Shown piece after piece: positions 2 to 17,062 of a DNA stretch of 64,000 bases. Made by a program: the position numbers and the translations under genes. Source of the DNA: Pseudomonas sp. p1(2021b) (GTDB lineage Bacteria; Pseudomonadota; Gammaproteobacteria; Pseudomonadales; Pseudomonadaceae); NCBI RefSeq assembly GCF_020151015.1, contig NZ_CP083746.1, positions 1,065,001-1,129,000 of the forward strand, given 5' to 3'. The notes under the pieces were generated by a model. The model worked only from the letters and a program-made list of their open reading frames with translations, was not told the origin of the DNA and did no database searches. Position 1 is the stretch's first letter. Each line of letters opens with the position of its first letter.

Positions 2-340
2 GGCACCCAGGCCTTCATGCAGCCCGGTGGCAAGATCGATGCTGGTGAGTCGCCCCAAGCGGCGTTGGTGCGTGAGCTGCATGAGGAGCTGGGGCTGCGG
101 CTGGACCCCACGCAAGCGGTCTATCTTGGTCAGTTCAGCGCACCGGCCGCCAATGAGCCAGGCTTTGAAGTCCAGGCCGAGCTGTTCCGGGTCGACAGCG
201 CCGAGGACGTCGCCCCGGCAGCAGAGATCGAAGAAGTGATCTGGCTGGCCGCTGATCAGGCCCCGGACCTTGAGCTGGCGCCCCTGACCCGCGACCTGAT
301 CCTGCCGCTCTATCGCCAGGCGCTCAACGCACCGCGCTGA
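2..340 (+). CDS. NUDIX hydrolase, 5'-truncated by window edge
   Basis: C-terminal 112 codons of a NUDIX-family phosphohydrolase; the true start lies before the window because the open frame runs to base 2. The NUDIX box is complete near the visible N-terminus: GGKIDAGES, then a helix with RELHEELGL, fitting GX5EX7REUXEEXGU, which binds the divalent metal needed to cleave nucleoside-diphosphate-linked substrates. The substrate cannot be told from this fragment; small one-domain NUDIX proteins cover dNTP, ADP-ribose and CoA pyrophosphatases. Its 3' end overlaps the 3' end of the convergent metR gene by 17 bp. Confidence 0.85.
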   Translation, partial: GTQAFMQPGGKIDAGESPQAALVRELHEELGLRLDPTQAVYLGQFSAPAANEPGFEVQAELFRVDSAEDVAPAAEIEEVIWLAADQAPDLELAPLTRDLILPLYRQALNAPR

Positions 341-1241
341 CGCCGTCGAGGGTCGAGAACGAGGTGTCCTTGGCCGTCAGCAGGAAGTCGCGCATGTACG
401 GCGCATCGAGCATATCGGTGCGCACCGCGGCGTGGAGCGTGGCGAACAGGCCCTTTTCACCCAGCCGCTTGCCCTTGACGTAACCCCGCGAGCTGTACTC
501 GTGCAACGCCCAATGAGGAATGCCGCATACGCCACGGCCGCTGGCCACCAGTTGCATCATCATCACGGTCAGTTCCGAAGTGCGCACCGCAGCCGGCTCG
601 ATATCGGCCGGTTCCAGGAAGCGGGTGAAGATGTCCAGGCGGTCGCGCTCCACCGGGTAGGTGATCAGGGTCTGGTCCAGCAGGTCCTGGGGCACGATAT
701 AGGGCTTGCCGGCCAATGGGTGCTGGTTGGCCACGGCGAGCATCGCCTCGTAGGTGAACAGTGGCACATAGGTGATGCCGGGCAGGTCCACCGGGTCGGA
801 GGTCACCACCAGGTCCAGGTCGCCGCGGGCCAGGGCCGGCAGTGGGGCGAAGGCGAAGCCTGAGGCCAAGTCCAGCTCCACTTCCGGCCAGGCGTCGCGG
901 AACTGGTCGATGGTAGGCATCAGCCACTGGAAGCAACTATGGCATTCGATGGCCATATGCAGACGACCTGCAGTGCCGCCTGCCAGACGTGCGATGTCGC
1001 GTTCCGCACCACGCAGCAGGGGCAGGGTGGCGTCGGCCAGTTGCAGCAGGCGCAGGCCGGCGCTGGTGAAGCGGATCGGCTTGGACTTGCGCACGAACAG
1101 GGTCATGCCCAGGCGCTCTTCCAGTTCCTTGAACTGGTGCGACAGGGCCGACTGGGTCAGGTGCAGGCGTTCGGCGGCTTCCACCAGGCTGTCGGCCTCG
1201 CGCAAGGCATGAAGGGTTTTCAGGTGGCGGATTTCCAGCAC
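324..1241 (-). CDS. metR: LysR-family transcriptional regulator MetR
   Basis: A 305-residue LysR-type regulator. The N-terminal winged helix-turn-helix (HLKTLHALREADSLVEAAE, then LTQSALSHQFKELE) matches MetR, which in Enterobacteria and Pseudomonas activates methionine-synthesis genes such as metE with homocysteine as co-effector. The substrate-binding-like C-terminal domain follows, including IECHSCFQWLMP. I place the start at a GTG (1241) because GGAG lies six bases upstream and VLEIRHLKTL is where MetR proteins begin; an in-frame extension to 1319 would add 26 residues without homology. No methionine genes are adjacent apart from metG 30 kb away. Confidence 0.85.
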   Translation of the reverse strand: MLEIRHLKTLHALREADSLVEAAERLHLTQSALSHQFKELEERLGMTLFVRKSKPIRFTSAGLRLLQLADATLPLLRGAERDIARLAGGTAGRLHMAIECHSCFQWLMPTIDQFRDAWPEVELDLASGFAFAPLPALARGDLDLVVTSDPVDLPGITYVPLFTYEAMLAVANQHPLAGKPYIVPQDLLDQTLITYPVERDRLDIFTRFLEPADIEPAAVRTSELTVMMMQLVASGRGVCGIPHWALHEYSSRGYVKGKRLGEKGLFATLHAAVRTDMLDAPYMRDFLLTAKDTSFSTLDGVSAVR

Positions 1242-15660: not shown

Positions 15661-15772
15661 AGGCTTCAGCCACAGCGCTCACCCTCTGTAGGAGCCAACT
15701 GTCTTTCACTTCCACCCGACCAATGCACGTATCAGCGGTAGGCAGACACCAGTCTGCCTACCCGATGTGCCT

Positions 15773-16701
15773 TCAGACAGGCTGATCACGCCATGGCGTT
15801 CCATCACGCACCATGGCATTGAGCCTCACCAGCAGCACGCGCATGCATGCCACCAGCGCTACTTTTGCTGGCTTACCGCTCGCGCGCAGCCGGGCCCATC
15901 GCGCTTTAAAATCTGGATTCACGCGTGCCATCACCAAGGTGCACATGTAGGCCGCACGACGCAGTTTCGCCCGGCCGCCGTAGACATGGCGCTTTCCGTT
16001 TTTGGTCCCACTGTCGTTGTTGTAGGGCGCCACACCCGCCAGGGCAGCTACTTGCGCACGGTTCAGATCACCCAGTTCCGGCAGATAGCAGAACAGACTG
16101 GCAATGGTGACGTTGCCCACACCCTTGATCTCGCTCAAGCGTTCGAATAGGTCTGCATCGACACGGCGACTCTGCTCAGCGATCTGTTCATCGCATGCCT
16201 TGATCAAGACGCGTAATGTCGATTCGAGCGTTTTATAGTGCTCCAGCACAACAGGCAGCGAGGCCTGCTTGATGCGGCGACGATTGTCATCGCGTTGCTG
16301 GACCAGCTATCGCGCTGATTGACCAGTTCGGTCAGGTGCTCGCGAGCCTCGTCAGGTACAACGAAATGCTTGTCCTCCAAGGCGGAGGCAAATAAGGCTA
16401 GCATCCGTGCATCGATAGGGTCAGTCTTGGCTCGCTTGCCCATGGCTAGGGCGAATTGACGTGCCCGGGCAGGATTGATTCGCTGCACTTTCAAACCGGC
16501 CTTGGCCAGCAACCGGATCGACAGCTTTTCGTAACCGCCGGTAGCTTCGACCAGCACACGCTCGACCGCATGGGCTTTGAAATGTTGGGCGATAACTTCG
16601 AGCCCTGCAGCATCATTGGTCACGCAAAGCTCGGAGGCCTCGGGATACAGGGCCACTTGCAAGGTATTTTTGGAAACATCGATTCCGGCATAGGCAGACA
16701 T
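15773..16701 (-). pseudogene. IS110 transposase, frameshifted by a one-base deletion
   Basis: The N-terminal frame (from ATG 16701) has the DEDD RuvC-like domain: GIDVSKNTL, VLVEATGGYEK and KTDPIDARMLA. The C-terminal frame has the Tnp_IS116/IS110/IS902 helix-hairpin-helix segment (LSEIKGVGNVTIASLF), AGVAPYNNDSGTKNGKRHVYGG with the probable catalytic Ser, and RRAAYMCTL. Reading frames change near 16308/16309: after LVNQRD, one extra base would continue as QLVQQRDDNRRRIKQ into the second half. The repaired gene would have 310 codons, a normal length for the family. Either a real inactivating deletion or a sequencing error; it is not a known programmed-frameshift family. Confidence 0.88.
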
Positions 16702-16704
16702 GAG

Positions 16705-16880
16705 TAAAGCCTCTAGTCTTGAAGATGAGAGGTCGCTCTGGCCTGGCTCACGCTTGTTGTTCGAGGTCGGACTCAGTCAACTGTTCGAGCTTGAGCCAGA
16801 GCGAGAAGAGTGGACGGCAGCTCGGCTCCTACCCGTGCTCATGGCACCGCGAGCTAGCAGCTTGCCGTCCACCCCTCTCA
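16705..16880 (-). ncRNA. Candidate bridge RNA of the IS110 element
   Basis: The non-coding end upstream of the transposase folds into two strong stem-loops on the minus strand. The first stem pairs 16859-16872 with 16810-16822 (GTGGACGGCA...TGCCGTCCAC); the second pairs 16795-16804 with 16733-16742 (GCCAGAGCGA with TCGCTCTGGC). The first loop contains GTAGGAG (minus strand of 16826-16832), complementary to CTCCTAC of the REP target including the CT core, plus CTGCT (16856-16860), matching the left target side CCGCT with one wobble. The second loop contains ACAGTTG (16778-16784), identical to the element end ACAGTTGGCT, and ACAAG (16753-16757), complementary to the other end CTTGT. This is the layout of an IS110 bridge RNA with target- and donor-binding loops; transcription is inferred. 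Confidence 0.72.
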
Positions 16881-17062
16881 CCTAACACCTTACCTCTTGC
16901 GAAGACACAAGCGGGCTTGCCCCGCGATCGGGCGCGCAGCGGCCGTGAAATCAGCTACTTCGATTCATCAGCCAGACCGAGTTGGCTGGTTTGCGGCCGC
17001 TGCGCGCCCGATCGAGGGGCAAGCCCGCTCTTACATGGGGCGTAGCGGCGCCAAGGTGGTGA

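Follow-up and report, generated by a model that had tools for sequence, protein, structure and literature searches.

A REP-targeting IS110-family element of Pseudomonas with a predicted IS621-type bridge RNA

Among the natural RNAs that guide DNA insertion, bridge RNAs are a class described only recently. In IS621 of Escherichia coli, which inserts at a CT core in REPs, a target loop is followed by a donor loop, the right donor guide (RDG) is discontiguous and a promoter lies across the joined ends of the element (PMC11208160). Guides for a REP-occupying element are already in print for ISPpu10, a member of the IS110 family from Pseudomonas putida: predicted LTG, RTG, LDG and RDG are given in the legend of Extended Data Fig. 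10 of PMC11208160, while PMC1525189 describes the element as a REP occupant with a 2-base repeat and reports that ISPpu9 and ISPpu10 target REP at one position. ISPpu9 is present in seven copies in P. putida KT2440, all in REPs with an AG repeat; it has a long structured tnp leader with an antisense RNA over it, and some copies carry a downstream ssr9 (PMC8450116). Elements of the IS1111 group, or seekRNA elements (ISPa11, ISEc11), also combine a DEDD recombinase with a guide RNA, but this RNA usually lies downstream and the ends carry subterminal inverted repeats; ISPa11 targets Pseudomonas REPs, and natural redirection of guides has been reported for ISEc21/ISMch6 and ISEc11/ISXne4 (PMC11187229).

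The element described here, found in a window of 64,000 nucleotides of Pseudomonas sp. p1(2021b) (contig NZ_CP083746.1; all coordinates are those of the window), is a further case of this known type. It is an IS110-family insertion sequence of 1217 bp at 15695..16911 with its transposase on the minus strand, and its left end very probably encodes a predicted IS621-type bridge RNA that would guide insertion into REPs. As in IS621, the core is CT within a REP and the target loop precedes the donor loop, and both a discontiguous RDG and a joined-end promoter are predicted; unlike in IS621, the REP and the guides are different ones, and the left target guides contain no more than part of the core. 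By the published description, ISPpu10 resembles it in occupying a REP, in having a 2-base repeat and in having four predicted guides. ISPpu9, also set beside the element by description, resembles it in the REP insertions, the AG repeat and the long structured leader; in contrast to the ssr9-bearing copies of ISPpu9, the genome studied here has no bridge-RNA match beyond six leaders. The DEDD recombinase and predicted guide RNA are common to the IS1111 group and REP targeting to ISPa11, but the RNA here lies upstream, no inverted repeat of at least 10 nt joins the two ends of the element, and the subterminal inverted repeats and downstream non-coding region of the IS1111 group are absent. In the proposed mechanism one loop of the bridge RNA would pair with both strands of the REP at the CT core, the second loop would pair with the joined ends of the element itself, and with these two loops the recombinase would insert the circular element at a REP. 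From homology to IS621 we infer that the RNA is transcribed, that the transposase binds it and that recombination follows these steps.

Six copies of the element with the same ends are present in the genome, all of them inside REPs at one position and with the same CT core, and such insertion at a short core in a specific target fits the IS110 group. Read on the transposase strand, the junctions are AAGCCCG/CT (GAGCCCG/CT in L004) and CT/CCTAC, and the flanks of the six copies differ beyond the REP. In the window copy the cores (CT on the minus strand, AG on the plus strand) lie at 16910..16911 at the left-end junction and at 15693..15694 at the right-end junction; as a result of the 2-base core, the exact element end is ambiguous by 2 bases. 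An earlier note on this DNA had given the element these same bounds and core, had held that its removal restores a REP and had proposed aligning other genomic copies and their junctions. All six copies agree in these junctions, and the joined site AAGCCCGCTCCTAC occurs 283 times exactly in the genome, while the same pattern read backwards does not occur. The element is a real insertion sequence of the IS110 family with REP-targeting. Its layout also fits the IS110 group, with a long non-coding end upstream of tnp (210 nt), a short one downstream (78 nt) and no clear terminal inverted repeats.

The remainder of the interrupted REP and an inverted partner REP occupy 16912..17029, with arms at 16910-16945 and 16994-17029 that are 97% complementary. 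The partner REP (16994-17033) reads AAGCCCGCTCTTAC; it is unoccupied and one base off the right guide. Elsewhere in the genome (G000:C1:1653389-1653421, corresponding to L007 1501-1533) the right end of a related element (33 bp, 88% identical) stands alone, directly next to CTCCTACAG. The stretch upstream of it in L007 contains no matching left end; an ORF there (39-1214, minus strand) has by eye the look of an integrase-type transposase. Searched with the element DNA, a plasmid collection gave no match, and no relative of the element was found among viral contigs. The left-flanking gene was matched in 26 relatives; at none of the 19 loci compared was there an IS110 transposase match, and as all 19 orthologous loci are too diverged (at most 81%), an exact empty REP was not demonstrable at them.

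The predicted bridge RNA extends from outer stem to outer stem over 16725..16881 on the minus strand and comprises stem-loop 1 (16808..16873, minus), the predicted target-binding loop, and stem-loop 2 (16736..16801, minus), the predicted donor-binding loop. The 210-nt leader folds with -98 kcal/mol (z -5.1), and none of 200 shuffles was as stable. Both stem-loops are kept in an alignment of 26 related leaders (A1), where 99.1% of cells are paired in the consensus structure, which was derived from this same alignment; slid controls reached at most 47.4%. Both sides have changed in 11 of the 43 pairs, compared with 3.4 in shuffles (0/500 as high), while further pair types, the one of five measures that is not above shuffles, numbered 22 against 23.3. 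Two stem-loops before the transposase start, as read in the earlier note from a single copy, are hence borne out by fold and conservation, and the loss of stem-loops among relatives, which it had named as an argument against its interpretation, is not what we see: they are conserved with compensatory changes.

We built a covariance model from the leader alignment, a search likewise proposed in the note; in the own genome its matches, at E values up to 0.1, are the six elements alone, so that there is no orphan bridge RNA by this model. In the genus, 36 of 398 sampled genomes match, the own genome included, and 24 of these 36 also contain a transposase match at 1e-60. The other 12 hold contig-end pieces, truncated relics or less well matched transposases (e.g. 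L146), as judged from 20 inspected loci. Hits to the target loop alone were considered as split RNAs, a reading we rejected because most of the 20 loci end at a contig end and are assembly breaks. Target-loop-only loci that lie inside contigs without a good transposase match (L147, L152, L153 and L154) look like truncated relics, and a further one, L155, has a short N-terminal transposase match. L147, L153 and L154 keep a REP junction and the leader and are without a transposase match. At L146 (G265:C45:18500-22500) two tandem bridge-RNA regions, 159 bp apart, precede one transposase match, a layout that recalls the tandem ssr9 copies of ISPpu9; this stretch contains Ns and its assembly is uncertain.

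In stem-loop 2 the left donor guide ACAGUUGACU (16775..16784, minus) matches the element end ACAGTTGGCT at 9 of 10 positions. With two of its bases bulged, the right donor guide GAACAACAAG (16753..16762, minus) can pair with CTTGTGTC; a discontiguous pattern is described for IS621 (PMC11208160). The motifs ACAGTTG and ACAAG, previously noticed in this loop as matches to the element ends, are located as stated. All of the 75 elements counted start with CTTGTGTCT and end with ACAGTTG or ACAGTTGG; in the left donor guide 75/75 have ACAGTT (5 of them ACAGTTA), and in the right one 74/75 have ACAAG. As the end motifs were used in locating the elements, the sameness of the ends is partly built in and covariation of the donor guides is hardly testable. 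When the ends are joined in a circle, a -10-like hexamer TAAGGT (16887..16892, minus) and TTGGCT (15695-15698 plus the core) would form a predicted promoter with a 17-nt spacer. The TTG of the right end and the TAnnnT of the left end lie 23 nt apart, start to start, in 31/31 distinct junctions (range 18 to 29 searched), a count in which the TTG is again partly built in by the search; between two groups the right end differs by one base, and a one-base shift in the left end compensates for this. This promoter-like pair fits the joined-end promoter of IS621 (PMC11208160). In the integrated element region, a promoter scan found none.

The strand opposite the bridge RNA carries a second signal. 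At gathering cut-offs Rfam gave no hit in the whole window; a permissive scan gave a full-length match (model 1-159) to RF02234 (sX15), a Xanthomonadaceae sRNA, at 16724..16887 on the plus strand, antisense to the bridge-RNA region, with 45.7 bits and E 9.3e-7, below the family cut-off of 55. Among relatives, 11 of 17 loci match at E 0.01, four of them above the cut-off (L019, L088, L018, L010). Seven of eight whole genomes match (all except G308), at 30 places and in two genomes above the cut-off, compared with 0 of 14 control genomes; the 17-locus and 8-genome sets overlap. With strands compared by eye, the match is antisense at 30/30 listed genome places and 11/11 matching loci, and there is no sense match among those listed. 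Rfam describes sX15 only as an sRNA, and its link to IS110 comes from these Pseudomonas-type relatives and one locus of Xanthomonadaceae type. The latter, L203, was the single sX15 match in a class-wide scan of 369 genomes, whose strict filters also lost the weaker hits of the own genome, and at 120 bits it is the best match found. An IS110 transposase fragment on the opposite strand, of Xanthomonadaceae type and 96% identical to one named from Stenotrophomonas, starts ~20 bases from the beginning of this match. The sense model R1 places a bridge RNA opposite sX15 at this locus (E 1.6e-11; a weak plus-strand match has E 0.026). In a plasmid collection the DNA of the sX15 locus had no match, and IS110 relatives of the Xanthomonadaceae-type transposase, below 60% identity, were found in 735 records.

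Because the sX15 family matches that strand, an antisense RNA is likely made, and the matches suggest a conserved RNA over the bridge-RNA region like Asr9 of ISPpu9. Asr9 is a stable RNA of ~180 nt antisense to the tnp leader, detected by Northern blot, and its promoter has the -10 over the ribosome-binding site and the -35 in the early tnp codons (PMC8450116). In the window a -10-like hexamer TAGTCT (16714..16719, plus) beside the ribosome-binding site is a possible antisense promoter; the -35 (TAGGCA) is weak, and a consensus promoter scan reported none at this site. Among 34 distinct elements, 32 have a TAnnnT hexamer at a distance of 7, 12 or 13 nt from the called start codon; the distances 7 and 13 reflect different start calls, the rows are related and L020, L034, L105 and L132 were left out. 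It is possible, if somewhat doubtful, that the sX15 match is no more than the mirror image of the bridge-RNA stems and says nothing of an antisense transcript. The complement of a stem-loop is a stem-loop again, the window match is under the family cut-off, six of the 17 relative loci and one of the eight genomes are without a match, and the strand assigned to sX15 is that of the Rfam family. The consistent antisense orientation in both overlapping sets argues against such a mirror image, as do the position of the best sX15 match beside an IS110 fragment with the R1 bridge RNA on its other strand, and the Northern blot that detected Asr9 on the antisense strand of ISPpu9 (PMC8450116).

What a conserved antisense RNA might do is constrained by ISPpu9, where overproduction of Asr9 raised transposition three- to fourfold (PMC8450116). 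A simple model in which the antisense RNA blocks the guide therefore does not fit, whereas a switch between bridge RNA and mRNA would fit this effect. By pairing with the leader, the antisense RNA would switch the transcript between a bridge RNA, folded and with exposed guides, and a transposase mRNA, unfolded and with a free ribosome site. Ssr9 of ISPpu9 is preceded by a B-AG-A box, and on this view it would be a bridge RNA made from a chromosomally fixed joined-end promoter; this reading relies on the text of PMC8450116 and not on the ISPpu9 sequence, and it is opposed by the report that deletion of ssr9 had little effect on transposition in KT2440 and extra Ssr9 slightly lowered it (PMC8450116). 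As a tentative whole, we propose that the clade has a conserved anti-bridge RNA (sX15 being Asr9, transcribed from the transposase start across the bridge RNA), that pairing in the leader would switch between bridge RNA and mRNA, that Ssr9 would be a bridge RNA from a fixed joined-end promoter, that guides would be rewritten for each host REP and that transposase-dead copies would ride on intact siblings. If true, the link between sX15, Asr9 and the bridge RNA would give an orphan sRNA family a meaning and would point to a layer of control that two main bridge-RNA papers do not mention; neither sX15 nor antisense occurs in PMC11208160 or PMC11187229. In the open-access literature we found nothing that links sX15 or an antisense RNA to bridge RNA, and for sX15 itself a table entry for Herbaspirillum. 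Of the whole finding, the anti-bridge RNA most deserves testing. At one relative locus, L013 869-1354, repeats match Rfam mir-5880 below its cut-off, probably by chance or as a local repeat.

That the transposase belongs to the IS110 family, as assigned earlier, is correct; its broken frame in the window copy had been overlooked. The part in frame with the start (16306..16701, minus) encodes residues 1-132, which match the intact sibling and form the RuvC-like part with D8, E52, D94 and D97. Near 16305 the frame changes and the ORF ends at 165 codons; the remainder of the gene (15773..16305, minus) is out of frame with the start and holds the stretch equivalent to the S231 loop. The frameshifted product would thus be without the domain that holds the catalytic serine. 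Four of the six copies share the frameshift (L001-L004, the window copy included), whereas L005 and L006, in which this stretch is intact, are longer and have an open frame of 309 codons. Apart from this single indel, by which the four are one base shorter than the other two, the six copies are identical. The features of the IS110 group, a DEDD domain, a Transposase_20 domain and the conserved serine, are present in the intact sibling L005 and broken in the window copy: in L005, PF01548 (DEDD_Tnp_IS110) scores 78.9 bits and PF02371 (Transposase_20) 58.8 bits, both above cut-off. By sequence, the closest solved structure is IS621 (E 4.6e-26), the best of two solved relatives and followed by ISCro4. 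Its catalytic residues D11, E60, D102, D105 and S241 (PMC11208158) align by eye with D8, E52, D94, D97 and S231 of the present element. Among complete elements from other genomes, 68/69 have an open frame of at least 290 codons (70/75 with the own six), a count that favours intact frames as the relatives were chosen mostly by protein match.

Since their ends and guides are intact and their transposase is broken, the window copy and its three siblings likely depended on transposase from the intact copies. We consider it unlikely that all six are inert relics among which the frameshift spread by gene conversion and not by transposition with a transposase supplied in trans. Homologous recombination could also yield copies identical outside a single indel. 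Against this, two copies have kept the full frame of 309 codons, identical copies at different sites point to recent copying, and nearly all complete elements from other genomes keep their frame, in the sample that favours intact ones. Much less probable still is an error of sequencing or assembly: the frameshift is a difference in length of a single base, and single-base length errors are a kind made by some long-read data, but a word count for one such error context in the 64-kb window showed no depletion, and two intact copies were read within the same assembly.

The guides of stem-loop 1 were compared with the insertion sites of relatives from 398 genus and 398 family genomes (overlapping sets), from the model search and from a named collection, which contributed P. 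psychrophila, an uncultured Pseudomonas and P. massiliensis. To locate the elements we used two end motifs, CTTGTG and ACAGTTG, together with a motif of the apical stem. An IS110 relative is present at 138 loci, 24 of which contributed no leader to the guide test: 13 are distant (38-42% identity, without end motifs), five have a short left flank and six are truncated. One leader step left out the duplicates L011, L038 and L016 and five contig-edge rows; the guide test began with 95 rows, reduced to 90 by left flanks under 8 bases and to 89 by removal of L095, a false anchor.

For the right target guide, the earlier note had paired GTAGGAG with CTCCTAC of the REP, and this placement is correct. 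The guide GUAGGAGC (16825..16832, minus) is complementary to GCTCCTAC at 8/8 positions, the right-guide signal peaks at the same place (10 classes, z 3.9), and in 73 of 75 elements, the own six included, the guide is an exact complement of the core with the five right-target bases that follow (the first 7). The two exceptions, L047 and L048, have a mutated guide. Both are from G156, share the mutated sequence GTGGGGGAG and yet occupy the usual CTCCCAC site, so that they may have moved on a sibling's RNA.

For the left target guide, in contrast, the earlier position was off by 4-7 nt in the 5' direction. It is TAGCTCGC at 16849-16856 that follows the target, with z 6.1 and 0 of 5000 permutations as good (89 elements in 23 guide classes). 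A scan of all leader offsets against the 7 bases left of the core was strongest at LE 56-62 (z 6.3, 23 guide classes), and the next best offset reached z 3.3. In the window copy the corrected left guide is UAGCUCGC (16849..16856, minus), which against AAGCCCGC has six matches, one wobble and one mismatch over 8 positions. Within the left-guide window, the last five left-target bases pair in 81/89 elements with wobble and in 40 without (own six included); examples where guide equals target are L009 (AAGCCG), L012 (ATTCG) and L139 (AGCCAG). The test failed even with wobble in eight (L029, L030, L034, L067, L073, L074, L136, L150), and at the fixed offset the fit is poor for four of the 23 guide classes (L034, L088, L090, L136). 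The sequence first taken as left guide, CTGCT (16856-16860), gave z -0.42 with 4607 of 5000 permutations at least as good and was rejected; its CTG falls within AAGCTG, a sequence that hardly varies, and among relatives CTGCT does not track the target. In the predicted fold the two target guides can pair with each other (helix 2).

These permutations ignore relatedness. On a tree of 41 transposases, which includes L033, added by hand, but neither the own broken copies nor 16 loci that are short or truncated, the right guide and the right target each change four times; the three independent pairs all change in the same direction, too few for significance (sign test p 0.25), and some branches of the tree are long (L010, L088) and its deep forks weak. 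Guides covary with insertion sites, and sites that do not match the loops, named beforehand as a result that would count against the idea, were not the pattern found. It is hardly credible that the transposase itself recognises the REP, with a leader that serves regulation alone, the role proposed for the 5'-UTR of ISPpu9, and with loop matches that are incidental. In favour of this view, translation in ISPpu9 was shown to be under the control of its leader, and an antisense RNA takes part (PMC8450116); PMC1525189 cites evidence that the transposases of two IS3-family elements choose their REP targets and suggests recognition of this kind more widely. Against it, the loop sequences here vary with the targets, in a single fixed position on either side of the apical stem, pairing of the stems is kept, and IS621 requires its RNA in vitro (PMC11208160). 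Regulation by the leader and function as a bridge RNA can coexist. With its conserved stem-loops, covarying guides and covariance-model matches, the predicted bridge RNA supports the IS621-like logic of target and donor loops first suggested in the note. The clade forms a natural retargeting series, in which similar ends and RNA architecture are combined with guides matched to different REPs; it shows which loop bases are free to change and corrects the location of the left guide.

The targets were counted in five genomes. AAGCCCGCTCCTAC occurs 283 times in the own genome (G000), three times in G308, twice in G262 and not at all in G018 and G161. GAATTCGCTCCCAC occurs 97 times in G018 and in none of the other four (G000, G161, G308 and G262), and the backwards control gave 0 or 1 in each. 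At its length, the 16-base target of L010, found once in its genome G161, is outside a simple abundance rule. The transposases of the own and G018 elements are 74% identical. Each of these two related elements thus matches the REP that is abundant in its own host.
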